From Micromonospora sp. WMMD1102 (GTDB taxonomy: Bacteria > Actinomycetota > Actinomycetes > Mycobacteriales > Micromonosporaceae), in assembly GCF_029626265.1 (NCBI RefSeq), contig NZ_JARUBN010000001.1, forward strand, positions 6,575,001 to 6,639,000: a stretch of 64,000 bases of DNA, written 5' to 3'. A program made the translations under genes and the position numbers. Of the stretch, positions 2,597 to 19,502 are shown one piece after another (position 1 is the stretch's first letter; each line of letters begins with the position of its first letter). Below the pieces are notes generated by a model. It saw only the letters and a program-made list of their open reading frames with translations, was not told where the DNA came from and ran no database searches.

Positions 2597-3481
2597 TCAG
2601 CGCTGGTACTGCACCGGGCCGACGTTGGTGGCCGCCATCCGCTCCAGGCGGCGTACCCGCTCCTCCATCTTCGGGTGGGTGGAGAAGAGGTTCGCAACGC
2701 CGCCACCCTTGAACGGGTTGTCGATCATCAGGTGGGCGGTGCTGGTCAGCCGGTTGTCGGCCGGCAGCGGCAGCGCCTTGGTGCCAGCGTGGATCTTGCG
2801 AAGCGCGCTGGCCAGCGCCAGCGGGTCGCGGGTGAGCGCGGCACCCGAGGCGTCCGCCTGGAACTCCCGGTTACGGCTGATGGCGAGCTGGATCAGGGTG
2901 GCCGCGATCGGGCCGAGGATCAGCGTCAGCAGCAGTACCGCCGGGTTCGGCGAGTCCTCGTCGTCCCCGCCGCCGAGCGGGATGAACCAGGCGATGTTGG
3001 CCAGCATGGTGATGATGCCGGCCAGGCCGGCGGCCACGCTGGAGATCAGGATGTCCCGGTTGTAGACGTGGGACAGCTCGTGCCCGATGACGCCCCGCAG
3101 CTCCCGGTAGTCCAGGATCTGCGTGATGCCCTGGGTCACGGCGACCGCCGCGTTCTTCGGGTTGCGCCCGGTGGCGAACGCGTTGGGCTGCATGGTCGGG
3201 CTTACGTACAACCGGGGCATCGGCTGCTTCGCCTCGGTCGCCAGCTCCCGGACCATCTGGTAGAGCGCCGGGAATTCGGCCTCGGTGACCGGTTGGGCCC
3301 GCATCGAGCGAAGTGCGAGCTTGTCCGACCAGAAGTAGCTGGCAGCGTTCAGGGCCAGCGACACGAAGACGGCGATCACCAGACCGCCGCTGCCGCCGAA
3401 CCAGTAGCCGACGCCGAGGATCAGTGCGGTGAGCAGGCCAAGTAGCGCGGCTGTCTTGAGCCGGTTGTGATGGCTATGCAC
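2597..3481 (-). CDS. htpX: Zinc metalloprotease HtpX
   Basis: This membrane-embedded M48 metalloprotease takes part in quality control of damaged or misfolded membrane proteins. It has 294 residues, typical for HtpX. Two N-terminal hydrophobic helices lie at about residues 11-29 and 32-50. The zinc motif HELSH is at residues 134-138 with the third ligand in [13 protein letters not shown], and two further hydrophobic segments follow the HExxH helix. The GTG at 3481 is preceded by GAAGGAG with a 5-nt spacer and gives the usual N-terminus [17 protein letters not shown]; longer starts are unlikely. It is a single gene, with a palindromic repeat directly after the stop. Confidence 0.95.
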
Positions 3482-3631
3482 GATAACTCCTTCGGTGCGC
3501 GGGCCGGTGGACCCGCTGACCGGTACAACACCGGGATACCCTCTCCACAATCCGGATATGACTGAGAGTTGCCTGGGAAAGGGCCATGTCGAGGGCCGAA
3601 GGCGGCCGAAATCACACCCGGAGGACGAACC

Positions 3632-5236
3632 TCACAGCGCGGCGACGTCCAGGATCAACTGTGGGGCGAAGCCGACGACCACCGCGACGGCGGTGGCCAG
3701 GGCCAGCGCGGCGACAACCGCCCAGGCCGGTCGTGCCGGCTCGGCGGCCGGGACCGGGCTGCCGTCGTCGGGCGGGACCGGGGCGGCCGGATCGGCGGCG
3801 GCCGGCACGACGGGTGCGGCAGCCGCTTCCCCGGCCCGGTCGGCGGCCGGCTCGGGAGCGTAGAGGGTGGCGGCGACCCGTACGTAGTAGGCGAGTCCGA
3901 CCACCGCGTTCAGCGCCACCACCACGGCGAGCCAGCCTGCCTCCCCGGCGAGCAGCGACCGCACGACGGTGATCTTGGCGAACAGCCCGGCCAGCCCCGG
4001 CGGCAACCCGGCCAGCCCGACCAGGGCGAACACGAACGCCGCCCCGACCCACGGCCGGCGCCGGGCCGCACCCCGGTAGTCGGCGATCTCGCCGCCGTCG
4101 GCGACCGCCGGCCGCAGCGCCACCACCGCCCCGAACGCGGCCAGCTCCAGCAGCACGAAGAAGACCGTGTACGCCACCGCGGCGGCGACCGCCGTGTCGA
4201 CCGCCTCCGCACTGCGCCCCGAGGCCAGCGCCAGTGCGCCGAGCGGGGCCAGGATGTAGCCGGCCTGGGCCACCGACGACCAGGCCAGCAGCCGGACCAT
4301 CCGGCGCTGCCGGAGCGCCACCAGGTTGCCGACGGTCATCGTCAGCACCGCCACCGCCGCCAGCACCGGGCCGGTCAGCCGCGCCGGCAGCGCGGCGGCG
4401 GTGACCGCGAGCAGCGCGACCACCCCGCCCAGCTTCGACGCGGTCGACAGGTACGCCGCCACCGGCACCGGGGCGCCGTCGTAGGTGGCCGGCGCCCAGG
4501 CGTGGAACGGCACCGCCGCCACCTTGAAAGCCAGCCCGAGCACGACCAGGGCCACCGCGACCACGGTCAGCGGCAGGCTCAGCAGCGCCGGCCCGGTCGG
4601 GAAGTCGCCGCCGCCGAGCGCCACCGGCCGGTTCGCCTCGGCGGTGAAGACCGCGTCCAGTCGACTCAGGTGCACCGCCCCGGTGACCGCGTAGAGCAGC
4701 GCCGCACCGAGCAGGGTGACGGCGGTGGCGACCACGCTCACCACGAAGAAGGTGAGCGCCGCCTCGGCACCGGCGACACTGCGCTGCCGGAGCCCGACCA
4801 GCACGTAGAGCGGCAGGGTCAGGGTTTCCAGCGCCACGACCAGGGTGATCAGGTCGCCGGCCGCGCCGAGTACCACGCCGCCGGTCATCGAGCAGGCGAG
4901 CAGGAAGCAGTACTCCCCCGGCGGCACCTGGCCGGACCGGAGCAGCGGGACGGAGAGCGCCAGCACCCCGAGGGTGAGCAGCGCGAAGAGGCAGCCGACC
5001 AGCGCCGCCCGGCCGTTCGCCAGATAGGAGCAGTCGGTGCCGGCGCAGAACGTCCGGCGCGGTCCGGCGACGCCGACCAGCACCGCACCGAGGGCGGTGG
5101 CGGCGGCCCCGGCCGCGAAGACGGCCACCGTCGCGCCCCGCCGGGCCAGCAGCAGGTCCGCCAGCAGCACGAGTACGGCGGTACCGGCCGCCAGGTACGC
5201 CGGCAGCAGCGCCACACTGTCCACGGTCTGGATCAC
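3632..5236 (-). CDS. nuoN: NADH-quinone oxidoreductase subunit N
   Basis: This antiporter-like membrane subunit belongs to the proton-pumping arm of respiratory complex I. It has about 534 residues and 14 hydrophobic segments. The conserved family parts are visible: LVVALETLTLPLYVLVGLR, an AFKVAAVPFHAWAPATYDGA segment carrying the broken-helix Lys/His region, and LLAWSSVAQAGYILAPLGAL. The start is GTG at 5236 (VIQTVDSVALLPAYLAAG), 26 nt after the nuoM stop region; GTG at 5245 is also possible. It is the last gene of the nuoIJKLMN block. The C-terminus carries a long Ala/Pro linker before a last hydrophobic segment. Confidence 0.93.
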   Translation of the reverse strand: MIQTVDSVALLPAYLAAGTAVLVLLADLLLARRGATVAVFAAGAAATALGAVLVGVAGPRRTFCAGTDCSYLANGRAALVGCLFALLTLGVLALSVPLLRSGQVPPGEYCFLLACSMTGGVVLGAAGDLITLVVALETLTLPLYVLVGLRQRSVAGAEAALTFFVVSVVATAVTLLGAALLYAVTGAVHLSRLDAVFTAEANRPVALGGGDFPTGPALLSLPLTVVAVALVVLGLAFKVAAVPFHAWAPATYDGAPVPVAAYLSTASKLGGVVALLAVTAAALPARLTGPVLAAVAVLTMTVGNLVALRQRRMVRLLAWSSVAQAGYILAPLGALALASGRSAEAVDTAVAAAVAYTVFFVLLELAAFGAVVALRPAVADGGEIADYRGAARRRPWVGAAFVFALVGLAGLPPGLAGLFAKITVVRSLLAGEAGWLAVVVALNAVVGLAYYVRVAATLYAPEPAADRAGEAAAAPVVPAAADPAAPVPPDDGSPVPAAEPARPAWAVVAALALATAVAVVVGFAPQLILDVAAL

Positions 5237-5261
5237 GACGCCCACCCGTCGGCCGAGCTGC

Positions 5262-6800
5262 TCATCGGATCGCCTCCAGCAGCGCCTCGACCGGCACCTC
5301 GGCATAGCCGAGCACCAGGGTCGGGGCGAGCCCGAGCGCCACGGCGAGCAGCACCAGCGGCCCCCAGGCGGCCCACTCCGCCCCGGCCAGTCCCGGCGTC
5401 AGCGTCAGCACCCTCGGGCTGGCCGGCCCGTGCGTGACCCGGCGCAGCAGCCGCAGCAGGTACGCCGCCGTCAGCGCGCCGCCGAGCGCGGCGAGCACGG
5501 CCAGGGTGGTCCAGAGTGGACCTCCCACCTGCCAGGCGGCCACCACCGCGAAGGCTTCGCCCCAGAATCCGGCCAGGCCGGGTAGTCCGAGCGAGGCGAC
5601 GGCGGCGAAGCCGAGCAGCCCGGCCAGCCGCGGGCTGCTCTCCCGGAGCCCGCCCAGTTCGGCCAGCCCCCCGGTGTGCGCGCGGTCCTTGACCGCCCCG
5701 GCCAGGAAGAAGAGCAGGCCGGTGATGACCCCGTGTGCGATGTTCCCGATCAGCGCCGCCTGGAGGCCGGTGGCGGTGAGCGTGGCGATGCCGAGCAGCA
5801 CGAACCCCATGTGCCCGACACTCGAATAGGCGATCAGCCGCTTCAGCTCGCTCTGCGCCAGGCAGACCAGCGAGCCGACGATTATCGCCGCCACCGCCAG
5901 CACCCCGAGCACCCCGGCCGCCGCCCGCGCCCCCTCCGGCGCCACCCCGACCGCCACCCGGATCAGCCCGTAGGTGCCCATCTTCAGCAGTACGCCGGCC
6001 AGGATCACGCTGCCGACCGTCGGCGCGGCGGTGTGCGCGTCCGGCAGCCAGGAGTGCAGCGGCCAGAGCGGACTCTTCACCGCGAACGCGATCGCCAGCA
6101 GCACGAACGCGCCGATCTGGGTGCCCCGGGACAGGCCGGTGCCGCCGGTCAGCTCGGTCAGGTCGGCGGTGCCGGCGGCGGTCACCACGGTGAAGACGCC
6201 GACCAGCAGCAGCACCGAGCCGAAGAGGGTGTAGAGGGCGAACTTCCGGGCCGCGTGCTGCCGGCCCTCGCCGCCCCAGACCGCGATGATCGCGTACATC
6301 GGCAGCAGGACGACCTCGAAGAAGAGGAAGAAGAGCACCAGGTCGAGGGCGAGGAAGGTGCCGAGGATGCCGACCTCGACCACCAGCAGCAGCGCGACGA
6401 GGCTGCGGCCCCGGCCCGGCGCCGGCACCCGCCACCAGGTGTACGCGCAGCAGAGCAGCGTCAGCAGCGCGGTAAGCACCACCAGCGGGTAGGAGATCCC
6501 GTCCACGCCGAGCTGGAACCGCAGGTCGAGTCCGGGCACCCAGGCCAGGTCCACCTGGTGCCACGGCCAGATGGCCGGCGCCGCCGTCCCGGGCGCGCCG
6601 ACCGGGGACGCGTCGTAGACCACCCAACTGTCGGTGGCGCCCAGCACGAGCAGCGCGGCGAGCACCAGGGTCACCGCCGCGAAGGCCGTACCGGTGATCC
6701 GGGCGGCCCGGTCGAACCGCCCCGGCAGCAGAGCGAGCACCGCCGCACCGACCGCCGGCACCGCCAGCGTGCCGACCAGCCCCGTCCCGCCGAGGGTCAT
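5262..6800 (-). CDS. nuoM: NADH-quinone oxidoreductase subunit M
   Basis: This is an antiporter-like proton-translocating subunit of complex I, 512 residues with about 14 transmembrane segments. Recognised blocks are LDLVLFFLFFEVVLLPMYAI (the conserved Glu of transmembrane helix 5), FAVKSPLWPLHSWLPDAHTA and SELKRLIAYSSVGHMGFVLL. It starts at the ATG at 6800, whose ATGA overlaps the nuoL stop by 4 bp. Translational coupling is therefore likely. It ends just before nuoN. Confidence 0.96.
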   Translation of the reverse strand: MTLGGTGLVGTLAVPAVGAAVLALLPGRFDRAARITGTAFAAVTLVLAALLVLGATDSWVVYDASPVGAPGTAAPAIWPWHQVDLAWVPGLDLRFQLGVDGISYPLVVLTALLTLLCCAYTWWRVPAPGRGRSLVALLLVVEVGILGTFLALDLVLFFLFFEVVLLPMYAIIAVWGGEGRQHAARKFALYTLFGSVLLLVGVFTVVTAAGTADLTELTGGTGLSRGTQIGAFVLLAIAFAVKSPLWPLHSWLPDAHTAAPTVGSVILAGVLLKMGTYGLIRVAVGVAPEGARAAAGVLGVLAVAAIIVGSLVCLAQSELKRLIAYSSVGHMGFVLLGIATLTATGLQAALIGNIAHGVITGLLFFLAGAVKDRAHTGGLAELGGLRESSPRLAGLLGFAAVASLGLPGLAGFWGEAFAVVAAWQVGGPLWTTLAVLAALGGALTAAYLLRLLRRVTHGPASPRVLTLTPGLAGAEWAAWGPLVLLAVALGLAPTLVLGYAEVPVEALLEAIR

Positions 6801-8797
6801 GCCACGCCCCCGAGGGCCAGTACGGCGGCGAGGCCGAGCAGCAGGGCGCCGCCGAGTACCGCCACCACCGCCCGGGGCACCCCGGCCCGGTGCAGCGACT
6901 CCAGCCCGCCGCCGAGTCCGCCGGTCCCCCGGCCGGTCCGCTCGACCGCCCCGTCCACCAGCCCCTCGTCGGCGCGCCGGGCCAGCCGGCCGAGCGCCCG
7001 CACCGGGCGTACGACAAGGGCGTGCTGGGCCTCGTCGAGCCAGAAGGCGCGGGCGAAGGCCGGGCGCAGCGGCCCCAGCGCGGTCGCCGGGTCGGCGGCC
7101 GGGTCGGCCCGCCAGCGCCACCAGGCGAGCGCCGCACCGGCGACCAGCAACGCCACCGGGATGATCACGAAGCTGCCCAGGTGGGCCTCGTCGAGCGCCA
7201 GCGCGTCCCGGAACGGGGTGACGAAGACCGCCAGTCCGAGTAGCGCGCTCGGCACCGCGAGCAGGATCACCGGCCAGCGCAGCAGGCCGGGCGGGTCGTG
7301 CGGCGGGCCGGCCGGGGTGTGCGCGGGCGAGCCGGCCGGCGCGTCGATCGCCGACGCGCCCCGCTCGGCGGGCGACAGGTCCGGGCTCGCCGGGCCGGCG
7401 TGCGCTGCCGGGCTCGCCGGGCCGGCGTGCGCTGCCGGGGTGTCGACCGGGTGGGTCTGCGCCCGGGAGGTGCCGAGGAAGGTGCGCAGCAGCAGGCGGG
7501 TGGCGTACCAGGCGGTCAGCGCGACCCCGGCCAGCCCGGCCAGCCAGACCAGCCAGCCGACCCAGGCTGCGGTCGGGCCGGCGTGGTGCCGGGCCGCCCG
7601 CTCGGCGACAACCAGGATGCCGTCCTTGCTCCAGAAGCCGGCCAGCGGCGGCACCCCGGCCAGCGCGGCCAGCCCGACCGTGGTGCACCAGAAGGTCACC
7701 GGCATCGGCCGGCGCAGCCCGCCCATCGCCGACATCAGGTTGCTGCCGACTGCGTGGATCACCGCACCCGCGGCCAGGAAGAGCAGCGCCTTGAAGGCAG
7801 CATGGCTGAGCAGGTGGAACAGTGCGGCCGGCGGCGAGCCGACCGCCAGCGCCCCGGCCATGTAGCCGAGCTGGGAGACCGTCGACCAGGCGAGTACCCG
7901 CTTGATGTCGTCCTGGGCGGTGGCGGCGAGCGCGCCGAGCAGCAGGGTGACCGCCGCCAGCACACCGAGCACGGCGAGCGCGGCCGGGGCCTGCTCGAAG
8001 AGCGGGAAGAGCCGGGTCAGCACGTAGATCCCGGCGGCCACCATCGTCGCGGCGTGGATCAGCGCGGAGATCGGGGTCGGGCCGGCCATCGCGTCCGGCA
8101 GCCAGGTGTGCAGCGGGAACTGGGCGCTCTTCCCGGCCACCCCGGCGAGCAGCAGCAGGCAGGCGGCGGTGAGGGTGCCGGGGCTGAAGTCGTGGGCCAG
8201 CACGTCCGAGATCCGGAAACTGCCGGCCTGCACGCCGAGGATCACGATGCCGAGCAGGAAGCCGACGTCGCCGACCCGGGTCACCAGGAACGCCTTCACG
8301 GCGGCGGCCGGCGCCTCCGGCAGCCGCCGGTCGTGGCCGATGAGCAGGTAGGAGCAGATGCCCATCACCTCCCAGCCGACCAGCAGCATGATCAGGTCAC
8401 CGGCGACCACCACCAGCAGCATCGCGGCGGTGAAGAGGCTGATCTGGGCGGCGTAGGGGGCGTACCGGTCGTCGTCGTGCAGATAGCCGACCGAGTAGAC
8501 CTGCACCGCCAGGGCCACCGCGGCGACCGCCACCGCGACCAGGGCGGCGGCCGGGTCCAGCCGGAGCGTGAGGGTGACCGCCAGCCCGCCGAAGTCGACC
8601 CACCCGGTGCCCGCCTCGGCACCCCGGCCGTCGAGGGCGACGACCAGGCCGATCGCCGCCGCCAGCGCCACCGCCGCGCCGCCGATGCCGAGCGCCGCCG
8701 CACCCGCCCGGGACCGCTGCGGCAGCAGCAACCCGACCAGGGCCAGTCCGAAGGGTACGGACGGCAGCAGCGCGGCCAGCACCGTCGCGGCGCTCAT
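6797..8797 (-). CDS. nuoL: NADH-quinone oxidoreductase subunit L
   Basis: This is the distal antiporter-like subunit of complex I, which also carries the long lateral helix. It has 666 residues. Family blocks include [55 protein letters not shown] and [20 protein letters not shown]. The start overlaps the nuoK stop (ATGA at 8794-8797). Between the antiporter domain and the C-terminal helix there is an unusual Ala/Pro/His-rich insert with AAHAGPASP repeated twice, from an exact 27-bp DNA duplication at 7383-7436. Confidence 0.95.
7383..7436. repeat. Exact 27-bp tandem duplication inside nuoL
   Basis: Two identical 27-bp units, 7383-7409 and 7410-7436, encode AAHAGPASP twice in the loop before the lateral helix of NuoL. 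The length is a multiple of three, so the frame is kept. Confidence 0.95.
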
Positions 8798-9273
8798 CGG
8801 CCCGCCCCCGGCGTAGTCCCCGGTCGCGCCGGCCCTGTCCCAGGTCCCGGTCCCGGTGCCGGCGTCGGGCCGGTGCCGGTCCGGGCCGGAGCCGCCACGA
8901 TCCCCTGCGGGCCGGCGTCCGGGGTGTGCGTGTCGAGGCGTACGTCGTCGACTGTCACCGTGCCGCGCAGCCGGTAGAGCTGGAGCACGATCGCCAGCCC
9001 CACCCCCACCTCGGCGGCGGCGATCACGATGACGAAGAGCGTGAACACCTGCCCGGTCAGCGGCAGCGGGGCGGCACCGTCGGCGCCCGGGGCGGGGTGG
9101 CCCAGCGCCCGGTGCAGCGGGGCGGCGTCGGCGGTGACCAGCAGCAGGTTCACCGCGTTCAGCATCAGCTCCACGGCCATCAGCACCAGTACGGCGTTGC
9201 GCCGGCGCAGGACGCCGTAGACGCCGATGCCGAAGAGGAGGGCGGCGACGACGTACGGGATGGCGGGTCTCAC
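8794..9273 (-). CDS. nuoK: NADH-quinone oxidoreductase subunit K with C-terminal extension
   Basis: This small membrane subunit of complex I is about 159 residues long, against a usual length near 100. The first 105 residues hold three transmembrane helices and the family segments [19 protein letters not shown] and [20 protein letters not shown], each with the buried Glu needed for proton transfer. The remaining 50 residues are a Gly/Pro/Thr-rich tail not seen in standard NuoK. The start is GTG at 9273, overlapping the nuoJ stop (GTGA). Its own stop overlaps nuoL. Confidence 0.93.
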
Positions 9274-9773
9274 CGGGGCCGCCCCGGCAGCCGTACGCTC
9301 ACCGCGATCGCACCGACGAGTGCGGAGAGCAGCAGCACCGAGAGCACCTCGAACGGGAGCACCCAGGAGCGGAACAGCTCGGTGCCGACCCGTTCGGCGG
9401 TGCCCGGCTCGGGCAGCTCCACGGTGGACCACCGGTACGCGTCGACGAGCAGGGCGGCCAGGCCCAGCCCGGTCCCGCCGCCGACGAGCGCGGCCGGCCA
9501 GCCGGGCCGGTCCAGGTCGTCGGCGGCGCCGATCGGCGCCCGGGTCAGCATCACCGCGAAGAGCAGCAGCACCACCACCGCGCCGACGTAGATCAACAAC
9601 TGCACCCAGGCGACCAGCTCGGCGGTGAGCACCAGGTAGAGCCCGGCGACCGCGCCCAGGCAGACCACCAGGTAGAGGCCGGCCCGGACCAGGTGCCGGG
9701 TGGCGACCACGAGTACGCCGGAGCCGACCGCCACCGCCCCGAGGGCCAGCATCAGCACGTCGGCGGCGGTCAC
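9270..9773 (-). CDS. nuoJ: NADH-quinone oxidoreductase subunit J
   Basis: This is a membrane subunit of complex I with 167 residues and five hydrophobic helices. The family block [22 protein letters not shown] contains the conserved Tyr/Gly (pi-bulge) helix. It starts at the GTG at 9773, overlapping the nuoI stop by 4 bp, and overlaps nuoK at its end. The tight coupling indicates one transcript with nuoI-N. Confidence 0.94.
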
Positions 9774-10348
9774 GGCGGCTCCTCCTCCCGGCCCGCAGCG
9801 GCGGCGGGGCTGCCGGCGGGACGGGTGGCGGGACGGCCGGCGGGGCGGGCGGCGGCCTTCTGCGCGGCGGTCTCCTCCTTGGCCGGCTCGCCGTTCGGGT
9901 CGTGCGCGGGCGGCGGCGGCACGCTGCCCATCCACTCCCCGAGGTGCTCCTTGTCGTGCAGCAGGTCCCGGATGTCGTACTCGGCGTACTCGAACTCCGG
10001 CGACCAGTAGAGCGCGTCGAAGGGGCAGACCTCGATGCAGATGCCGCAGTACATGCAGAGCGAGAAGTCGATGTCGAAGCGGTCCAGTACGTTGCGCTGG
10101 CGCGGCCGGGCCGCACCGGGCATCGCCACCTCCTCCTTGTGGGAGTCGATGTAGATGCACCAGTCCGGGCACTCCCGGGCGCAGAGCATGCAGACCGTGC
10201 AGTTCTCCTCCAGCAGGGCGATCACGCCCCGGGATCGTGGCGGCAGCTCGGGGGCGACGTCCGGGTACTGCTGGGTGTGCGAGTGCCGCGTCATCGTCCT
10301 GAAGGTGACGGCAAGCCCCTTCGTCAACCCCTCGCCCGGCACACTCAT
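9770..10348 (-). CDS. nuoI: NADH-quinone oxidoreductase subunit I (two 4Fe-4S)
   Basis: This peripheral-arm subunit carries clusters N6a and N6b, which relay electrons to NuoB. It has 192 residues. Two complete ferredoxin motifs are present, Cys50/53/56/60 ([12 protein letters not shown]) and Cys98/101/104/108 ([12 protein letters not shown]). After residue 135 there is a roughly 55-residue Ala/Pro/Gly-rich tail that is unusual for the family. The ATG at 10348 has AGGATAAGG just upstream. It is the first gene of the I-N block, separated from nuoH by two plus-strand genes, so it must have its own promoter in the roughly 110 bp before 10457. Confidence 0.95.
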
Positions 10349-10456
10349 GCGCCTTATCCTGCCGTGTCGGCGGTTCCGGCGCGACCACCCCTGGCCAGTT
10401 GAAGCGGTACGGTGGCGTCGGGTGACCTGAGCCCCGCCGTCCGCGAGAGGGATGCC

Positions 10457-11029
10457 ATGACCGCGGCCCTGAACGATCCGTACCCGCCCAGCGGCGGGTG
10501 GACCACCGACGACCTCGACGCCATGCCCGACGACGGCCACCGCCGCGAGCTTCTCGACGGAGTCTTGATCATGTCGCCCTCCCCCACCGCGGCACACCAG
10601 ACCATCGCCGGCCGTCTGATGGTCGCGCTCGAAGAGGACTGCCCCGACCAGTACGACGTGACCCAGGCCGTCGAGGTGCGGCTCAGCCAGCGCCGCTCGT
10701 TCATCCCGGACGTGCTGGTCAGCACGGCCACCGCGGCGGCCCGCCGGACCGCCCGGTACGAGCCGCACGAGGTGGTACTCGCCGTCGAGATCGTCTCGGA
10801 CAGCTCGGAGAGCATGGACCGGTTCACCAAGCCGGCCCTCTACGCCAGGGCCGGCATACCGTTCTACTGGCGGATCGAGACGAAGCACGGGCTGGTCGTG
10901 CACACCAACCGGCTGGACCCGGTCGAGGAGGTCTACGTCGAGACGGGCCGGTGGACGAAGTTCGTCGACACCGGCGAGCCCTGGCCGATCAACCTGCCGA
11001 TCAGCCGGCTGACCCCCCGGCACCTGTAG
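10457..11029 (+). CDS. Uma2-family (DUF820) putative restriction-like endonuclease
   Basis: The protein has 190 residues. The PD-(D/E)XK-type signature of the Uma2 family is visible: [20 protein letters not shown], then FIPDVLV (Asp), then [17 protein letters not shown] (Glu of the active site) and [17 protein letters not shown]. Members are scattered, often multicopy and functionally undefined. The start at ATG 10457 follows GAGAGGG; an upstream ATG at 10412 has no site. It lies divergently between nuoI and nuoH, breaking the complex I set, which suggests a later insertion into the region. Confidence 0.85.
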
Positions 11030-11169
11030 CCCAACCCGGCTCGCCGCCCCGCGCATCGCTCCGGCGACGACGGACATCGCGGGTGGGGCGGGGGTCGCGA
11101 ACGGCCGCACACTGCTCTCGCAGAGCGGCGCGGAGCCCGTCCGCGCCGCCCGGACGAGGGGGTGGCGGC

Positions 11170-11508
11170 GTGGAACTCGACGCACGCGAGGCGCTGGTCC
11201 TCAGCGGCCATCTGGACGTCGCGGCGGACGGCCCGCCGCTACCCGCCGAGGTCGTCCGGACACGACTTGTCGAAACGATCCGGCTGCATCGGATGATCGG
11301 CGGATTGTGTCAGGCGTGTGGCGAGCGGGCCGGTCCAGGCGGCCGGTGCTTCAAAGCCGCGATAGCGGTGGAATGGTGCCGGCAAAACCCGACGACGTTT
11401 CTCGATCAGTCGGTTCCCGGGGTCGTGGAGTCGGACCGTCGCGGCAACGACGGCCCGACTCCACGACCCCGGGCCGCCGCCACCCGGCCGAGCGGCCCGA
11501 AGCGGTGA
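11170..11508 (+). CDS. Small Cys-containing protein (CX2CX9C)
   Basis: A GTG at 11170 with GAGGGGG 7 nt upstream opens a 112-residue frame. Residues 1-45 are helical ([16 protein letters not shown]), followed by [14 protein letters not shown], a possible zinc knuckle, and a short amphipathic helix ([10 protein letters not shown]). The C-terminal 40 residues are Arg/Pro-rich and are encoded across a strong DNA hairpin, so this end may be non-functional. The same helix, CX2CX9C and helix layout occurs at 25122-25397. I know no defined function. It could belong to the small DNA- or protein-binding zinc proteins common in actinomycetes. Confidence 0.6.
11416..11473. terminator. Strong hairpin between the small CX2CX9C gene and nuoH
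   Basis: The arms 11416-11434 and 11455-11473 are perfectly complementary over 19 bp (core GGGGTCGTGGAGTC / GACTCCACGACCCC), and the inner segment adds CCGTCG/CGACGG. It lies at the 3' ends of two convergent genes (stops at 11508 and 11557), the expected place for a bidirectional terminator. Confidence 0.75.
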
Positions 11509-11556
11509 CCTCGACGCGTCCGACCATCGTCGCCATTCGCGGCTGGGCGCCCGGGA

Positions 11557-12525
11557 TCAGGCGATCGCCAACTTCACCCCGGCGGTCAGCACCAGCTGGC
11601 CGAGCGCCACCGGGACCAACACCAGCCAGCAGAGCCGCTGCAACTGGTCCTCGCGCAGCCGGGGGTACGTCACCCGGAACCAGATGATCACGAACGAGAC
11701 GGCGAAGACCTTCAGCAGGGTCCAGAGCCAGCCGAGGTACTCGTCACCGAACGGCCCCTGCCAACCGCCGAGGAACAGCACCGTGGTCAGCGCGGCGATC
11801 ACCACGATGCCGACGTACTCGGCGAGCAGGAAGAAGGCGAACCGGAGACCCGTGTACTCGGTCATGTACCCGAAGACCAGTTCGGAGTCGGCGATCGGCA
11901 TGTCGAACGGCGGGCGGCGGATCTCGGCGAGCCCGGCGACGAAGAAGACCACCATCGCCGGGGCCTGCCAGAGCAGCCACCACGGCTGCCACGCCTGCAC
12001 GATGCCGGGCAGGCTCAGCGTGCCGGCCGCCATCGCCACACTTGCCGCCGCGAGCACCAGCGGCAGTTCGTAGCCGAGCAACTGGGCGGCGCCCCGGAGC
12101 CCGCCGAGCAGGCTGTACTTGTTGGCCGAGGCCCAGGCCGACATGAGTACCGCGACCACCCCGACGCCGACCACCGCGAGCACGAAGAAGAGCCCGATGT
12201 CCAGCGGCTGCCCGACCAGGTCGTTCGGGCCGAGCGGGATCACCAGCAATGCCAGCAGGTACGGCACCAGCGCCACCACCGGGGCGAGCCGGAACACCGC
12301 CCGGTCCGCCTCGCGCGGGGTGATGTCCTCCTTCTGCACGAACTTGACGCCGTCGGCGATCAACTGTGCCCAGCCGTGGAAGCCACCCGCGTACATCGGG
12401 CCGAGCCGGCCCTGCATGTGCGCCATCACCTTGTGCTCGGCCTGCCCGACCACCAGCGGCAGGACCAGGAACGCCGCCACCACCCCGACGACCCGGACCA
12501 GCAGTTCCAGCCAGAGCGGCATCAC
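11557..12525 (-). CDS. nuoH: NADH-quinone oxidoreductase subunit H
   Basis: This membrane subunit forms the quinone chamber at the junction of the peripheral and membrane arms of complex I. It has 322 residues and eight helices. The hallmark loop AEIRRPPFDMPIADSELVFG and YMTEYTGLRFAFFLLAEY is present, as is QAEHKVMAHMQGRLGPMYAG near the N-terminus. The start is GTG at 12525 or ATG at 12522, overlapping the nuoC stop. In the standard order nuoD, E, F and G would sit between C and H; here there is no room for them. Confidence 0.95.
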   Translation of the reverse strand: MMPLWLELLVRVVGVVAAFLVLPLVVGQAEHKVMAHMQGRLGPMYAGGFHGWAQLIADGVKFVQKEDITPREADRAVFRLAPVVALVPYLLALLVIPLGPNDLVGQPLDIGLFFVLAVVGVGVVAVLMSAWASANKYSLLGGLRGAAQLLGYELPLVLAAASVAMAAGTLSLPGIVQAWQPWWLLWQAPAMVVFFVAGLAEIRRPPFDMPIADSELVFGYMTEYTGLRFAFFLLAEYVGIVVIAALTTVLFLGGWQGPFGDEYLGWLWTLLKVFAVSFVIIWFRVTYPRLREDQLQRLCWLVLVPVALGQLVLTAGVKLAIA

Positions 12526-13304
12526 GCGCCCCCGTCCCGGCGCTCCGGCTCCGCCGCCCCGGCCCCGCCAGCCACCCCGCCGCCGCCATCATCCGGCGAC
12601 CCCGAGGCAGACCGGGCCGGCGGCCCCGACGCGGGCGCGGCCGGCGGGGTGCGGCGCGGCGGTCTGTTGGCCGGGGAGGTCCGGGCGGGCGGGCCGGAGG
12701 CGGGTGCGGCGGAGACGGGTACGGCGGCGGCCACCCCCCACTCCCCAGGTGCCGGTACGCCCGGTGGGCGCATCGCCTGCCGCCGGGTGGTACCCGCCTC
12801 GGACTCGCCCGGCTCCTTCGCACCCGGCCACGCCTTCGCCACCCGGGAGGCGAGCACGAACTCCTTGCGCAGCGGATGCCCCTCGAACTCCGGCGGCAGC
12901 AGCAGGGGCGCCAGGCCGGGATGGCCGGCGAAGTCGACGCCGAACATCTCGTGCGTCTCCCGCTCGTGCCAGGCCGCCCCCGGATAGAGGTCCACCACGG
13001 ACCCGACGGTCGCGGCGTCCCGGGGCACCCGGGTCCGGAGCAGCACGCCGTGCCGGTGCCGGGTCGACCAGAGGTGCGCCACCACGTCGAACCCGCCGTC
13101 CAACTCGTCGACGGCGGAGAGCCAGTCGAAGAAGTCGCAGGCCAGCTCGGTGTCGTCCCGGACCGCCCGGACCGCGTCCCGCCACCGGCCGGCCGGTACG
13201 TCGACGGTCGCCCGCGCGTACGCCTGGCCGCCGGACTGCCCGACGGTCGTCTCCGCATCCGCGAGCAGGGTGGCCAACCGGTCACCGACCTGTTCCGGGG
13301 TCAT
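12522..13304 (-). CDS. nuoC: NADH-quinone oxidoreductase subunit C (30 kDa) with long tail
   Basis: This 30-kDa peripheral-arm subunit supports the iron-sulfur core. It has about 260 residues. The signature PGAAWHERETHEMFGVDF is followed by EFEGHPLRKEFVLASR, matching the family motif ERE..DMFGI..GHP..RK. The last 100 residues are Pro/Ala/Gly-rich (SPANRPPRRTPPAAPASG) and are not part of the family fold. I chose the ATG at 13304; a TTG at 13364 would extend it by 20 residues. It is divergent from the dehydrogenase gene at 13406 and translationally coupled to nuoH. Confidence 0.92.
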   Translation of the reverse strand: MTPEQVGDRLATLLADAETTVGQSGGQAYARATVDVPAGRWRDAVRAVRDDTELACDFFDWLSAVDELDGGFDVVAHLWSTRHRHGVLLRTRVPRDAATVGSVVDLYPGAAWHERETHEMFGVDFAGHPGLAPLLLPPEFEGHPLRKEFVLASRVAKAWPGAKEPGESEAGTTRRQAMRPPGVPAPGEWGVAAAVPVSAAPASGPPARTSPANRPPRRTPPAAPASGPPARSASGSPDDGGGGVAGGAGAAEPERRDGGA

Positions 13305-13405
13305 GTCCGCGATCCTAGGGCCATCTCCGGCCGTACCGCCGGGCCCGGACGGGTTATTCGGCAACTCCCGGCGTACCGGACAGTCCGGGAGGGAAGAATG
13401 ACCAG

Positions 13406-14452
13406 GTGCGTGCGATTACCGTGACCCCGGGCCGGGCCGGCTCGCTGCGACTGGCCGACGACTTCCCGGAGCCGAGCCCCGAAGAGGGCGCGGTGCTGGT
13501 GGAGGCCGTCGCGGTCGGTGTCTGCGGCACCGACCGCGAGATCATCGACGGCGATTACGGCGAGCCGCCGCCCGGCAGCACCGAACTGGTGCTCGGGCAC
13601 GAGTCGCTGGGCCGGGTGCTGGAGGACCCGAGCGGCTCGCTCGCCCCCGGTGACCTGGTCGCCGGGATCGTCCGGCACCCGGACCCGGTGCCCTGCACCA
13701 ACTGCGCGGTCGGCGAGTGGGACATGTGCCGCAACGGTCTCTACACCGAGCACGGCATCAAGTGCCTCCAGGGTTTCGCCCGGGACCGCTGGCGGGTCTC
13801 GCCGAAGTTCGCCGTACGCCTCGACCCGGCCCTCGCCGAGCTGGGCATGCTGCTCGAACCGACGAGTGTGGTGGCGAAGGCGTGGGAGCACATCGAGCGG
13901 ATCGGCGCCCGCGCCGCCTGGGAACCGAAACGGGTACTGGTGGCCGGGGCGGGACCGATCGGCCTGCTGGCCGCCCTGCTCGCCGCGCAGCGCGGCCACG
14001 AGTTGCACGTGCTGAACCGCTCGGCGAACGGCGAGAAGCCGGCCCTGGTGGAGGCGCTCGGCGGCCAGTTCCACACCGGCAGCATCCCCGAGCTGGGCGT
14101 GGAGTTCGACATCGTGCTGGAGTGCACCGGCGCCCCGACGGTGGTGCTGGACGCGATGTGCCAGGCGGCGCCGAACGGGATCGTCTGCCTGACCGGCGTC
14201 TCCTCCGGCGGGCGGACGATCGACTTCGACGCGGGCGCGCTCAACCGCGAACTGGTGCTGGAGAACAACGTCGTCTTCGGCACCGTGAACGCGAACCGGC
14301 GGCACTGGGAACTCGCCGCCGAGGCGCTCGCCGCCGCCGACCGGGACTGGCTGGCCAGGATGGTCACCCGGCGGGTGCCGGTCGACAGGTATGCCGAGGC
14401 GTACGCCTCGGAGCCCGACGACATCAAGGTGGTGCTGGAGTTCCCGCACTGA
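13406..14452 (+). CDS. Zinc-dependent glucose 1-dehydrogenase-like alcohol dehydrogenase
   Basis: This is a medium-chain zinc oxidoreductase of 348 residues, most like the glucose 1-dehydrogenase branch that oxidises aldoses with NAD(P)+. Catalytic zinc ligands are visible: Cys40 in VGVCGTDREI, His-Glu in LVLGHESLG and Glu in LLEPTSVVAKAW. A structural zinc set is seen in PDPVPCTNCAVGEWDMC. The nucleotide site is VLVAGAGPIGLLAALLA. The start is GTG at 13406 with GGAGGGAAG upstream. It reads away from nuoC, sharing its promoter region. A link to reduced cofactor supply for the respiratory set is possible but unproven, as is the true sugar substrate. Confidence 0.85.
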   Translation: MRAITVTPGRAGSLRLADDFPEPSPEEGAVLVEAVAVGVCGTDREIIDGDYGEPPPGSTELVLGHESLGRVLEDPSGSLAPGDLVAGIVRHPDPVPCTNCAVGEWDMCRNGLYTEHGIKCLQGFARDRWRVSPKFAVRLDPALAELGMLLEPTSVVAKAWEHIERIGARAAWEPKRVLVAGAGPIGLLAALLAAQRGHELHVLNRSANGEKPALVEALGGQFHTGSIPELGVEFDIVLECTGAPTVVLDAMCQAAPNGIVCLTGVSSGGRTIDFDAGALNRELVLENNVVFGTVNANRRHWELAAEALAAADRDWLARMVTRRVPVDRYAEAYASEPDDIKVVLEFPH

Positions 14453-14495
14453 CCGACGACCACGGGAACGGTCGGCACCGACGGCACGGGACCGG

Positions 14496-16385
14496 CTAGC
14501 CTCCGGGCCGGGGCGCGCAGGTGGTGACCAGGTCCAGTTCCAGCGTCGTGGCCCGGTCGTCGGTGACCTGGACCGGGCTGGCGGTCCTCGGCCCGGCGTT
14601 CCCGTCGGCCGGTAGCCCGTACCAGCAGGTGGTGGCGGCCTCGGCGTACTCGACGTGCACCTGTTGGGTGCGGTGGCCGGGCAGGACGAACCGGCCGTCC
14701 GGGCCCGGGTGCGCCGGCCCGGCCCCCGCGACGTCCCCGGTCCGGTGGTGGTACGTCCAGACGTACCCGGAACCGGCCGGCACGCCGCGCCGGGTGAGGG
14801 TGCCGGCCAGGCTGCCCCCGGCGACCAGCCGGGCCGGCAGTTCGGCGGTCCGGCCGGCGGCGACCGGGGTGAGTCGGGCGGTCAGCCGGTCGGCGACGTC
14901 CCCGGACCACTGCCAGGCGTACCCGTTGCCCGGAGGCGGGACGAACTGCACCGGCCAGGAGTACGGGCCGAGGTCGTCGATCGTGTAGCGGCCGTCCGGT
15001 CCCGAGCAGTGCCGGCCGTGCCCGCTGCCCCGGTCGGGCCGGAAGGCGTACGGGTAGGCGCAGACCCCCGGCACCGGCGCCCCGGTCGACGCGTCGGTGA
15101 CGGTGCCGCCGATCGCGCCGGGCGGGTCCATCACGATCGGCGCGATGGCGGCGGTCCGGCCGGCCCTGATCCGCACCCGGGCGGCGAGCCGCTGGTCACC
15201 GGTACCGCCGTTGGGGGTAACCCACTGGGCGCCGTACCGCCGGTCGGTCCGTTCGTACGGGTCGTCGGCCCGGTAGGCATAGAGCTGCACGGTGGCCGAG
15301 TGGTCCAGCGGGCCGATCGCGAGCCGGCCGGTGGCGTCGGAGCAGTAGCCGGGCTGGCCGGCGGACTGCCCGCCCCGACCCGGCACGACCAGCCGGACGC
15401 AGACCCGGTCCACGGGTCCTCCGGTGACCGAGTCCCGGACCGTGCCGGTCAGCCCGGCACCCGCGACCAGCGTCACCGCGGGCCGGGCCACCGCGCCCCG
15501 GACCACCTCGACCGCCGCCGGACGGGCGGGCGGGAAGTGCGAGGGTGCGGCGGTGACGGCCACCTCCCACCGGCCGGGCGGGACCTGGCCGAGCCGGACC
15601 AGCCCGGCGGCCCCGCAGGACTCCACGGTCCGGGTGGGGGCGTCGATCCGGGCACAGGGCCGGGGTACCGGTGCTCCGGTCGCCGCGTCGGTGACCCGCA
15701 CCTCGACGGTGCCGAGTGGCAGCCACGCCTCGTCCAGGGTCAGCGTTCGGGCGTCGGCCAGCGGGTAGGTTCCGGCGTCCGTCCGGTCCTCCCGGCCCGG
15801 CAGCCACTGGGTGCCGTGCACGTCGTCGAAGAGGGAGACCTGGTAGCGGCCGGGCCGAAGGTTGCCGATCTGGTAGCGGCCGTCCCCGTCCGGCGTGGCG
15901 TACGCCAGCGCGTGCCAGTCCCGGTCGGTGGCCCAGACGGTGACCGTGGCGTCGGCCGGGGCGCCGGAGTCGTCCACCACCCGCCCCCGCAGGGTGCCGG
16001 CGCCGGTGCCGAGCACCACGTCGCGTTCCAGCACCGTGTCGCCGGGCACCCAGACGGTCTCGGCGTTGCCGTAGTCGGGTGCGTCCGGCCACCAGTGGGT
16101 GCGGTGGCCGGGGGCGGTCACCCGGACCCGGTAGCCGAGGTCGGTCGGCACCCCGCTGATCGAGTACCGGCCGGCGGGATCGGTGCAGAAGGTGGCCTGT
16201 TCCACCGTCTCGGTGCGGAGCAGCGCGAGACAGGCGCCGGGCACCGGGCGGCCGTGTTCGGTGCGGACCGTGCCGGCGTAGCCGGCGGAGGTCTGTGCGA
16301 CCGGCGCGGCCGCCGCCGGTGTGGTCGGCAGGCAGAGCGCCACTACCAGCACTCCGGCCATAGAAGTCACCCAACGCAGTTCCAT
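14496..16385 (-). CDS. Secreted carboxypeptidase-regulatory-like repeat protein
   Basis: The 629-residue protein has a clear signal peptide (MELRWVTSMAGVLVVALCLP through about residue 27, AAA before PVAQTS). The mature part is a series of beta-sandwich modules that start with phrases such as YAGTVRTEHGRPVPGACLAL, LRGRVVDDSGAPADATVTVW, LTGTVRDSVTGGPVDRVCV and IGGTVTDASTGAPVPGVCAY. These are carboxypeptidase-regulatory-like (CarboxypepD_reg/Cna-B) folds, about six in all. Paired cysteines within modules suggest disulfides. No catalytic domain is visible, so it is probably an exported adhesive or scaffold protein. It separates nuoB from nuoC and faces the dehydrogenase gene tail to tail. Confidence 0.8.
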   Translation of the reverse strand: MELRWVTSMAGVLVVALCLPTTPAAAAPVAQTSAGYAGTVRTEHGRPVPGACLALLRTETVEQATFCTDPAGRYSISGVPTDLGYRVRVTAPGHRTHWWPDAPDYGNAETVWVPGDTVLERDVVLGTGAGTLRGRVVDDSGAPADATVTVWATDRDWHALAYATPDGDGRYQIGNLRPGRYQVSLFDDVHGTQWLPGREDRTDAGTYPLADARTLTLDEAWLPLGTVEVRVTDAATGAPVPRPCARIDAPTRTVESCGAAGLVRLGQVPPGRWEVAVTAAPSHFPPARPAAVEVVRGAVARPAVTLVAGAGLTGTVRDSVTGGPVDRVCVRLVVPGRGGQSAGQPGYCSDATGRLAIGPLDHSATVQLYAYRADDPYERTDRRYGAQWVTPNGGTGDQRLAARVRIRAGRTAAIAPIVMDPPGAIGGTVTDASTGAPVPGVCAYPYAFRPDRGSGHGRHCSGPDGRYTIDDLGPYSWPVQFVPPPGNGYAWQWSGDVADRLTARLTPVAAGRTAELPARLVAGGSLAGTLTRRGVPAGSGYVWTYHHRTGDVAGAGPAHPGPDGRFVLPGHRTQQVHVEYAEAATTCWYGLPADGNAGPRTASPVQVTDDRATTLELDLVTTCAPRPGG

Positions 16386-16507
16386 GAGCCGGGAGAGTAA
16401 TCGTGCCGGTCCCCCGGACGCGGTTCAATCGGTCAACCTGCCAATTCCGGCAGATCAGGCACCAATCGCTACTTTCCGCCGCCGCTGTCCGGACGGTGGA
16501 CGGGAGG

Positions 16508-17086
16508 TCACTGCCGGGCGGCCGGGGGCGGCACCGGAGGCGCGGTGAGCGCGTCGGCGCCGCGCCCGGCCGGTACGCCGCCCCGGTCGGCCGGCGAGGC
16601 CAGCTCGTCCGGCCGGGCCACCCCGCCGGGGCCGGAGCGCTCGGCAGCGATCTTGTCCTGTAGGCGCAGGATGCCGTGCAGCAGTGCCTCGGGGCGCGGC
16701 GGGCAGCCGGGGACGTAGACGTCGACCGGGATGATCTGGTCCACGCCCTTGGTCACCGAGTACGAGTCCCAGTACGGGCCTCCGCAGTTGGAGCAGGCGC
16801 CGAACGAGATCACGTACTTCGGCTCGGGCATCTGGTCGTAGAGCCGCTTGATCGCCGGGGCCATCTTGTCGGTGACCGTCCCGGAGACCACCATCAGGTC
16901 GGCCTGCCGGGGACCGTGCGCGAACGGGATCACGCCGAGCCGGATGAAGTCGTGCCGGCCCATGCTGGTCGCGATGAACTCGATCGCGCAGCAGGCCAGC
17001 CCGAAGTTGAAGACCCAGAGCGAGTAGCGCCGACCCCAGTTGAGCACGAACCGGATCGGCTCGCCGAGCACCGCCGGCAACTGCAC
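16508..17086 (-). CDS. nuoB: NADH-quinone oxidoreductase subunit B (cluster N2)
   Basis: This peripheral-arm subunit holds the terminal 4Fe-4S cluster N2, which reduces quinone. It has 192 residues. The N2 ligands are all present: adjacent Cys-Cys in [17 protein letters not shown], Cys in [16 protein letters not shown] and Cys in [14 protein letters not shown]. The last 45 residues form a Pro/Ala-rich tail. The GTG at 17086 has GGAGGAGG 9 nt upstream and gives the usual start [20 protein letters not shown]. It stands alone: no nuoA upstream, and nuoC lies 3.2 kb downstream beyond two unrelated genes. Confidence 0.95.
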
Positions 17087-17247: not shown

Positions 17248-18600
17248 TCAGCCCGGCAGGCCCCGCCGGTCCCAGACGAACACGTCCGGCGCCTCGTTGC
17301 CGTCGGACGGCACGAGGTTGGACGCGTAGGACGCGAAGACGACGTGCCGACCGTCCCCGCTGACCTGGCCGGGCAGCACGCTGCCGTTGCCCTGGACACC
17401 GCCGGTGGAGACGCTCACCCGGACCGTCCGCCCCGCCCGGCGATCGTGCAGGAACATGTCCAGGTCCTGGTTGGTGTCCCCGGGCACCAGGTTGGTCGCG
17501 TCCGAGCTGAACGCGACGTACCGGCCGTCGGCGCTGATCGACGGGCCGCGACCGGCGGCGTCGGCCTGGACCCCGTCGGACGAGACGCTCACCATCCGGG
17601 TGGTCCCGGCCCGGCGGTCCCGGACGAACACGTCCGGGAAGTCGTTGGTGTCGCCGGGCACCAGGTTGAGGGCGAACGAGGTGAAGGCCACGTACCGGCC
17701 GTCCGCGCTGATCGCCGGGCTGCGGCTGCCGAGTTCCTCCGCCGGCCCGACCCCCTCGCCCCCGTCGTCGGTCACGCTGACCCGGCTCGTCCGGCCGGTC
17801 CGCCGGTCGTGCACGAAGACGTCCGGCGACAGGTTGGTGTCGCCGGACACCAGGTTCGAGGCGCTGGACGAGAAGGCCACGTAGCGGCCGTCCGCCGAGA
17901 CGGCCGGCTCCTGGCTGAGGTGGTCGCCCTCGGCACCGAGGCTCGACACGCTCACCCTGCCGGTGACGCCGGTGCGCAGGTCGTGGACGAAGACGTCCGA
18001 GATGCCGTTCGTGTCGCCGGGGACCAGGGTGGAGGCCCAGGAGTCGAAGGCGACGTACCGGCCGTCCGCGCTGATCGTCGTACCGCCGGCTCCGCTGTCG
18101 GCCGGGACGCCTGCGGTGGAGACGCTGGCTATCCGGGTCGTGCCGGTACGCCTGTCGTGCACGAACGCGTCCGATTCGTCGTTCGTGTCGCCGGGCACGA
18201 GATTGGACGCCCTGGAGGTGAAGACCACGAACCGGCCGTCGGCGCTGAGTACGGGCTCGACGCTCCAGCCGTCGCCCTGGGTCCCGTCGCTGGCGACGCT
18301 CACCCGGGTCGTACTGCCGGCCACCCGGTCGCGGACGAACACGTCGGAATCCCCGTTGGTGTCCCCCGGCACCAGGTTCGCGGAGTACGACGAGAAGGCC
18401 ACGTACCGCCCGTCCCGGCTGGTCGTGCCGTCGGAACCGCCGGCCTCGCCCTGCTCGCCGGCGCCGGAGACGCTGACCCGGCTGGTCGTGCCGTGACCCG
18501 GTGCCGGACCGGCCGCCGGAGAACCGGGGGTTCCGTCGGCGCCGCCGGGTGGTACGGCCAGCATCGCCGCCAGGGCCAGGGACAGCGCAGCACTGATCAT
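17248..18600 (-). CDS. Secreted seven-bladed TolB-like beta-propeller protein
   Basis: The 450-residue protein starts with a signal peptide ([20 protein letters not shown]). Seven repeats of about 53 residues follow, each built as [19 protein letters not shown] then [10 protein letters not shown] then a RVSVS strand; the last blade ends at [12 protein letters not shown]. An N-terminal strand [11 protein letters not shown] would close the ring, the usual propeller latch. This is the WD40-like/PD40 (TolB) fold. DTN and DGR turns suggest calcium or loop stabilisation. No enzyme motif is seen. The ATG at 18600 has GGAGGTGAGG upstream. Its role is unknown, probably extracellular binding. Confidence 0.85.
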
Positions 18601-18753
18601 CGGGGCCTCACCTCCGGTCGACGCGCACACGTTGCCGTGCGTCGATCGCCAGGCTAGGCCGACCGGGCAACGCGACGGTCCGATCGGGGCGGAACCTCCG
18701 GCAACGGGACGGTCCGAGCGGCGCGGGGACTCCGGGCAGGGCGACGGGTCCGG

Positions 18754-19398: not shown

Positions 19399-19437
19399 GC
19401 CCTCGTCTCCTGGTACGGCCTTGGGAGCGGACCTGTG

Positions 19438-19476
19438 GCGGATACGGACCCGCAGGGGGTACGGGTCCGTATCCGC
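19438..19476 (-). terminator. Terminator hairpin after the LPMO gene
   Basis: GCGGATACGGACCC at 19438-19451 is perfectly complementary to GGGTCCGTATCCGC at 19463-19476, with an 11-nt loop. It starts 27 nt beyond the LPMO stop codon (19503) and before the DUF305 gene. Confidence 0.8.
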
Positions 19477-19502
19477 GACGGGTACGTCCCGGCGGGCTGG
19501 CG

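Follow-up and report, generated by a model that had tools for sequence, protein, structure and literature searches.

We analyzed a 64,000-nucleotide stretch of Micromonospora sp. WMMD1102 DNA (C1:6575001-6639000 of the 8.92 Mb assembly; "the window" below is this whole stretch), which carries part of a second set of nuo genes for respiratory complex I. Our best explanation is that this set is scattered and not incomplete: the window would hold nine of the eleven subunits of an actinobacterial Nuo2 whose genes lie at three loci. We predict that Nuo2 is a complex I of 11 subunits that lacks the NADH module, in which electrons from 2-oxoglutarate:ferredoxin oxidoreductase (Kor) and ferredoxin would reduce menaquinone and protons would be pumped. 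To this explanation as a whole, including the donor, the pumping, and a predicted methylation of NuoD2, we assign a probability of about 0.65.

Nine subunit genes in the window and two elsewhere

Minus-strand open reading frames (ORFs) between 3632 and 17086 were identified by NCBIfam models as NuoN, M, L, K, J, I, H, C, and B. Cut-offs were passed by nuoM2 (5262..6800; TIGR01972), nuoL2 (6797..8797; TIGR01974), nuoK2 (8794..9273, with a chosen start; PRK05715.1-2), nuoH2 (11557..12525; just above cut-off with PRK06076.1-2), and nuoB2 (16508..17086; TIGR01957), the last of which starts with a GTG at 17086 in a frame that extends to 17197. Best matches below cut-off identified nuoN2 (open frame 3632..5305, the true start probably slightly inside), nuoJ2 (9270..9773, start chosen; NuoJ models), nuoI2 (9770..10294; NuoI models), and nuoC2 (12522..13364; TIGR01961), which has a C-terminal extension. 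The order given in a preliminary description of this DNA, namely B, then C overlapping H, then I to N, all on the minus strand, stands, and with the starts chosen there are 4-bp overlaps at C/H (12522-12525), I/J, J/K, K/L, and L/M. It was also right that nuoA, D, E, F, and G are missing from their usual place; none was seen between the nuo genes of the window in the ORF list or with NCBIfam.

The iron-sulfur ligands and antiporter motifs of the window set are intact. NuoB2, the ligand of cluster N2, carries GLACC, FGAC, and PGCPP, and NuoI2 has CxxCxxCxxxCP twice, the two 4Fe-4S motifs (N6a and N6b). Antiporter-like charged-residue motifs, examined in the window, are present in NuoL2 (WEVMG, GKSAQFP, DIKR, and FWSK), NuoM2 (FFE, VKSP, LKMG, and GFWGE), and NuoN2 (Glu of transmembrane helix 5 [TM5] and the Lys motifs of TM7 and TM8); we presume these to be the residues that matter in the three subunits. 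A decaying or misassembled complex I copy could also present as an operon split by unrelated genes, with A and D far off. However, nine open frames, retained ligands, the same order in two more genomes of the genus, and family-wide presence (see below) make decay or misassembly extremely unlikely, in agreement with the earlier opinion that the set is not simply decaying.

The same genome has a main nuo operon at C1:7.11-7.12 Mb, so the suspicion that the window set is a second paralogue was correct. Fourteen frames, ordered A to N, are readable there. Pfam models confirmed four of them (A, B, D, and H), E, F, and G were read from the order, and the nuoN frame extends past the fetched stretch. 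The full-genome search that had been proposed returned, besides this operon, a second A, matched at C1:8411692, and a second D, matched at C1:8029571. NuoA2 (126 amino acids) starts near C1:8411620, about 1.8 Mb from the window set, and its gene is divergent from korA and korB, the 2-oxoglutarate:ferredoxin oxidoreductase genes. NuoD2 is full length (387 amino acids, C1:8029568-8030731), lies about 1.4 Mb from the window set, and has a gene of the PF02636 (MidA/NDUFAF7) family upstream. Thus, a nuoD from elsewhere exists as anticipated, neither it nor nuoA adjoins the window, and the description of the gene set as incomplete has to be given up. As the genome has only two NuoH and only two NuoB copies, there is a single candidate set with which the extra A and D could be partnered. 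H1-type NuoH proteins are 38 to 48% identical to H2. No NuoE, F, or G was seen at the three loci of this genome or matched in the 40 nuo2 loci fetched from the class and the family; no genome-wide search for a second E, F, or G was made.

NuoD2 and NuoB2 are complementary at cluster N2

In mitochondria, an Arg in the HRGxE motif of NDUFS2 is located at cluster N2 and is the substrate of NDUFAF7, which dimethylates it (PMC8042128 and PMC3829151, as far as their available text goes); the latter source names Arg85 as the target, and the former describes this Arg as needed for N2. According to the same texts, Thermus thermophilus has Thr at this position, and Arg83 of its NuoB homologue occupies the same space. 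In our alignment, Arg83 (VAGR, counted from the alignment) aligns with an Arg in NuoB1 of the main operon, whose NuoD1 has Thr. The residues are swapped in the second set, with Thr in NuoB2 (VSGT) and Arg65 in NuoD2. The switch pairs are D1 Thr with B1 Arg and D2 Arg with B2 Thr. Since D2 and B2 are complementary here, D2 fits B2, and by sequence the NuoD2/NuoB2 pair has the mitochondrial arrangement at N2 and the main operon the Thermus arrangement.

The switch Thr was found in 39/39 nuo2-type B2 sequences, that of the window included, and is invariant in a 13-row alignment (A1). For the 21 B2 sequences from loci without a membrane arm ("pump-less"; see below), the pattern matched in 6, Thr is visible in 14 of the other 15, and L124 stops short of the site. 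A PF02636 gene is present in 74/86 genomes with D2 and in 5/111 others; our Fisher tests of co-occurrence treat genomes as unrelated. It lies within the fetched stretch in 18/20 (L043-L062) and 12/15 (L103-L117) D2 loci, and in the two misses of the first group (G270 and G209) it is 6 to 7 kb from D2, just outside the stretch. Between nuoD2 and midA of Micromonospora sp. WMMD1102, a PIN-domain match below cut-off was seen on the other strand (L006, 9109-9630 [+]), possibly a toxin-antitoxin insertion.

These data bear on a proposal for Streptomyces coelicolor, whose nuo2 is said to be without CDEFG and L and of unclear function, and for which a hybrid machinery was considered possible (PMC9239103, in the text available). 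In such an enzyme, nuo2 would borrow NuoC, D, E, F, and G from the main operon. Unlike in that account, C2 and L2 are present in the loci read here, C2 in 40/40 nuo2 loci, and at the Arg/Thr switch the dedicated D2 is the counterpart of B2 and not of B1. We therefore give the hybrid little weight.

A tryptophan at the quinone position of NuoD2

NuoD2 has Trp88 at the position of the quinone-binding Tyr, where its alignment to solved complex I chains is gap-free. We take this residue to be Tyr87 in T. thermophilus and Tyr108 in the bovine enzyme, a numbering partly after PMC8042128. In the accessible text of a review, the Tyr of NDUFS2 is described as strictly conserved and as the residue to which the head group of the quinone binds (PMC8119997). 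Trp and the HRG Arg were found in 65/65 D2 sequences (65 loci from 60 genomes; L112 shows HRG and RHDW). The second His of HPSTHG, also at the quinone site, is changed in 2/64 D2 sequences, both from pump-less genomes.

In records collected by name, Trp was found in 14/14 NuoD sequences from entries titled Acidimicrobiia, relatives, or just Actinomycetota (L167-L183), as well as in Fodinicola. Tyr was found in 9/9 from Chloroflexota, Bacillota, and Kordiimonadaceae. These counts represent 24/80 named-record loci, the rest being without a frame that has the motifs sought; because HRG or HTG was required in this search, the Arg result in these records is not independent.

Distribution and linkage of nuo2

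We surveyed 197 genomes of Actinomycetes and 121 of Micromonosporaceae. A second NuoH occurs throughout the family: at least 118/121 Micromonosporaceae genomes have two or more NuoH matches, although some matches may be parts of a single gene where an assembly is fragmented. Among the matches listed for the class, which may not include every D2-type row weaker than about 1e-64, a D2-type NuoD is present in 86/197 genomes (54 at ≥70% identity, 2 partial, and 30 at 40 to 67%) and an H2-type NuoH in 53/197. Among these listed matches, 51/53 H2 genomes also have a D2-type NuoD, and H2 is present in 51/56 genomes whose D2 is strong (54) or partial strong (2). The two H2 genomes without D2 are assemblies that are 72% and 80% complete. 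In one single-contig Micromonosporaceae genome (G013), the matches listed comprise just a single copy each of NuoD, NuoH, and NuoB.

A NuoC-like gene is upstream of H2 in 20/20 H2 loci from across the class (L063-L082), of which 16 have A2, 16 have korA, and 0 have D2. The 20 Micromonosporaceae H2 loci (L083-L102) all have C2 upstream of H2 (with a gene between them in L088); A2 is present in 2 and D2 in 0. With D2 in none of these 40 loci, some of which are cut by contig ends, the C-H junction is therefore old and class-wide. Among the matches listed, 32/53 H2 genomes have KorA no more than 12 kb from H2.

There are exceptions to the distance of D2. One genome (G142) has a NuoN-like match near D2 (L034), and in Fodinicola feengrottensis (L151) D2 and MidA directly follow N2, in the opposite direction (8450 and 18353-19539). 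The Fodinicola layout is perhaps between the Acidimicrobiia operon, described below, and the dispersed form. The same locus has a NuoF-like match (39%) upstream of A2. One Micromonosporaceae genome (G003; L118 and L119) has korAB twice, one copy beside A2 and the other not. The neighbor of A2 in our genome is presumably DHPS-like; a relative of it (31 to 40%) lies near nuoD2 in 8/20 and 10/15 D2 loci, e.g., L045-L048, L104, and L107 (fetched at 12 to 20 kb).

Collinear operons and repeated loss of the membrane arm

Records of the Acidimicrobiia type have a collinear A-B-C-D-H-I-J-K-L-M-N arrangement with a NuoB2-type NuoB, although several are cut by contig ends. MidA comes directly after N in L169, L170, and L173, and a weak match (22%) is present in L179. 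One record titled as a Bifidobacterium breve metagenome-assembled genome (L178) has Acidimicrobiia-like nuo clusters, and its bin label is probably wrong. On a NuoD tree of 65 rows rooted on named non-actinobacterial NuoD (G190, with B2 near a contig end, was left out), all Trp sequences form one clade (100/99), with the Actinomycetes D2 nested inside (100/100). We had considered the form with only the redox subunits as ancestral and dropped this idea on the collinear operons of Acidimicrobiia.

NuoH was searched genome-wide in 34 D2-positive genomes for which no H2-type NuoH was listed, here termed pump-less, with G207 as a positive control; J to N were examined at the loci. Exactly one NuoH, of the main-operon type, was found in 29 and none in G180, while G156, G140, G131, and G150 have further NuoH pieces or distant copies. 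At least two NuoB matches are present in 33/34, the exception (G309) having D2 with one NuoB match. All 21 fetched pump-less loci have B2, C2, and I2, often followed by an HtpX-type gene. Both CxxCxxCxxxCP motifs of I2 are kept in 21/21, and the tandem Cys of B2 in 20/21, with the remaining sequence extracted short. korA is divergent and adjacent in 16/21; it lies outside the stretch in L138, L139, L140, and L142, and in L141 the korA/korB matches beside B2 are no more than weak. Genome-wide, KorA was found in 24/34 among the matches listed; the Kor link of pump-less modules is common, not universal. One group (f35: G185, G235, G286, G305, and G313) has D2 and a second NuoB, with no KorA at 1e-100 among the matches listed.

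Pump-less rows fall in four places among the full ones on the NuoD tree: G133/G156/G174, a clade of twelve, G280, and G150. The clade of twelve has long branches and a less certain exact place, but its nesting among full rows is supported (96/91). Thus, the membrane arm was lost independently in at least four lineages of Actinomycetes, with B2, C2, I2, and D2 kept, mostly together with korAB. The ratio of nonsynonymous to synonymous substitution rates (dN/dS) of B2, C2, I2, and D2 is 0.03 to 0.44 in 20/21 pairs, two of the D2 pairs comparing a full with a pump-less genome, and is undefined in one (dS saturated). This points to constraint, not decay, on the leftover module.

At 9547-12070 of L138 (G150), remnants of A2, H2, and J2 surround B2, C2, and I2, and this genome is in the course of losing the arm. 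The single-contig genome G280 (L121, 9805-16650) has korAB, B2, C2, I2, and HtpX, with other open frames filling the would-be H2 site; G136, of the same genus, also has only one NuoH. Actinosynnema pretiosum has a pump-less locus with kor (L195).

Working model and alternatives

In our model, KorAB would oxidize 2-oxoglutarate and deliver low-potential electrons, directly or via ferredoxin, to the two 4Fe-4S clusters (N6a/N6b) of NuoI2. From there, the electrons would reach cluster N2 of NuoB2 and finally a menaquinone at the site shared by B2 and D2, and H2, A2, and J2 to N2 would pump protons. A MidA-type enzyme would methylate the Arg in the HRG motif of NuoD2, allowing assembly of N2 and the Q module. 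We infer the Kor/ferredoxin donor, the menaquinone acceptor, the pumping, and the methylation; the genes, the D2/B2 pairing signal, the ligands, the motifs, the synteny, and the co-occurrence are observed.

Ferredoxin or F420H2 had been suggested earlier as an alternative donor. Actinobacteria make F420, and an F420H2-fed, Fpo-like complex would draw on it. However, FpoL (311 of 1,050 bits) and FpoH (231 of 475 bits) matched far below cut-off, leaving F420H2 unsupported by family models (FpoF was not searched for), and the recurrent neighbor is korAB; we regard an Fpo-like enzyme as very unlikely. Ferredoxin is plausible, because the missing nuoA2 adjoins korAB. The PFOR/ferredoxin donor put forward for Desulfitobacterium in the available text of PMC11238625 is a precedent and not proof.

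Several observations weigh against our model. KorA is present in 152/197 genomes among the matches listed, many of them without Nuo2, and at 1e-100 it was not found, among the matches listed, in three genomes that have H2 (G134, G153, and G247) or in 10/34 pump-less genomes. Kor is not a dedicated or obligatory partner of Nuo2; too widespread and also missing from some pump-less genomes, KorA was rejected as a phyletic marker, and therefore only its proximity is informative. With Trp in every D2 read, quinone may not act as the acceptor in its usual manner. Finally, the arm is absent from 20/21 fetched loci that keep B2, C2, and I2, with remnants only in the 21st, and therefore pumping cannot be the whole function. 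Together, the Trp and the pump-less relatives argue that acceptor chemistry at D2/B2 differs from that of canonical complex I.

In a second reading, the Q module (B2, C2, D2, and I2), mostly linked to Kor, would be the central part and would pass electrons to something other than quinone bound in the tunnel; the arm would be an optional ancestral attachment that couples this transfer to pumping only in some lineages. It would account for the Trp in place of Tyr in all D2 read, the arm losses on the rooted tree (at least four), the purifying selection on the leftovers, and the ligands of I2 and B2 kept in pump-less loci. However, the full arm is kept by Acidimicrobiia and most Actinomycetes loci read, and some pump-less D2 are on very long branches, two of them with a changed second quinone-site His as well. 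We hold this reading to be tentative and prefer the 11-subunit, proton-pumping Nuo2.

For the module itself, the odds are slightly under even that a soluble or membrane-associated NuoBCDI, mostly KorAB-linked, is an electron-transfer enzyme in its own right. It would derive from an 11-subunit complex I with an already altered quinone site (Tyr to Trp, with a probably methylated Arg), the pump having been discarded at least four times.

Other genes of the window

Three unrelated genes are found among the nuo blocks, not the four first described, and all lie outside the complex. A Uma2-like gene (10412..11029, plus strand; PF05685) is between I2 and H2, a glucose-dehydrogenase-like Zn oxidoreductase gene (13406..14452, plus strand; PF16912 and PF08240) is between C2 and B2, and a CarboxypepD_reg repeat protein gene (14496..16385, minus strand; PF13620) follows. 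The Uma2-like gene occurs in some Micromonosporaceae loci and is absent from others. The Zn oxidoreductase gene is on the same side of C2 in 12/20 Micromonosporaceae loci, with B2 beyond the stretch in L091 and L096. Six genomes of the genus are in the survey, and the locus was fetched from two, G032 (L085) and G058 (L086). The order of B2, the CarboxypepD_reg gene, the dehydrogenase gene, C2, H2, and I2 to N2 is identical in both; thus, the layout of the window is not an assembly accident.

The conserved neighbor 3' of N2 (2597..3550, minus strand), identified by synteny, is a gene that we take from its sequence to encode an HtpX-type M48 protease. It stays beside I2 at many loci without the membrane arm, and this retention hints at a functional link with Nuo2.

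Significance and comparison with known systems

The nuo2 gene set is already known and as such ordinary. As far as our literature searches show, the new elements are its completeness, the evidence for pairing, a NuoD that bears Trp, the association with MidA, and a pump lost repeatedly and independently. The literature searched, at the level of listings, showed no description of the pump-less module, and an earlier mention is possible. If true, NuoBCDI would show that the redox half and the pump of complex I have been separated in nature. Work on complex I regards the NuoD Tyr as indispensable for reducing quinone and seeks to explain how the pump is driven by the redox half. The actinobacterial clade has Trp in every copy read, together with a mitochondria-like Arg and a likely methylase, and some of its hosts can be grown and mutated. 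With the pump lost and the redox half kept in some lineages, the division of labor is directly testable.

The finding also suggests what the Streptomyces nuo2 is and why it appeared incomplete. A Streptomyces nuo2 operon with a separate nuoD2 has been reported, with L2 listed and no C2 in the text available (PMC8388888), and nuoA, nuoB, and nuoC were placed in one region with korA and korB (PMC13118837, in part). In the accessible portions of these two papers and of PMC9239103, no function of nuo2 is named. SCO4594 is given as alpha-ketoglutarate ferredoxin oxidoreductase and SCO4595 as alpha-ketoglutarate dehydrogenase in the text at hand of PMC8981147. In the named Streptomyces loci that we read, A2 to N2 are divergent from korAB. 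We take SCO4594 and SCO4595 to be KorA and KorB. The Streptomyces nuo2 (SCO4599-4608 plus the separate nuoD2) has the same gene set and order, with kor nearby and D2 elsewhere. In both content and D2 separation, the window set is a Streptomyces-type nuo2; it differs in that A2 with korAB is also outside the cluster and that three unrelated genes are inside.

The main Nuo operon of the same genome encodes paralogous subunits, but it has NuoEFG-like genes, Tyr in NuoD, and a Thr/Arg switch of the Thermus type, and Nuo2 differs from it on each count. Canonical complex I has the quinone-binding Tyr of NuoD, from which NuoD2 departs by its Trp. A group 4 [NiFe] hydrogenase, whose large subunit would have two CxxC motifs, was considered and rejected, as NuoD2 is without CxxC and matches hydrogenases at 146 to 150 bits, compared to 268 for complex I. 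Like the NuoD2 system, mitochondrial NDUFS2 with NDUFAF7/MidA combines an HRG arginine on the NuoD-type subunit with a methyltransferase of the PF02636 family, whereas NDUFS2 has the quinone Tyr where NuoD2 has Trp, and methylation of NuoD2 is only predicted. The enzyme of Desulfitobacterium hafniense, as presented in the available text of PMC11238625, resembles Nuo2 in having eleven subunits, no NuoEFG, and ferredoxin/PFOR as the proposed donor. In contrast to that enzyme, the actinobacterial NuoD has Trp, and within Actinomycetes D2 and midA have moved out of the operon and the arm has been lost repeatedly.

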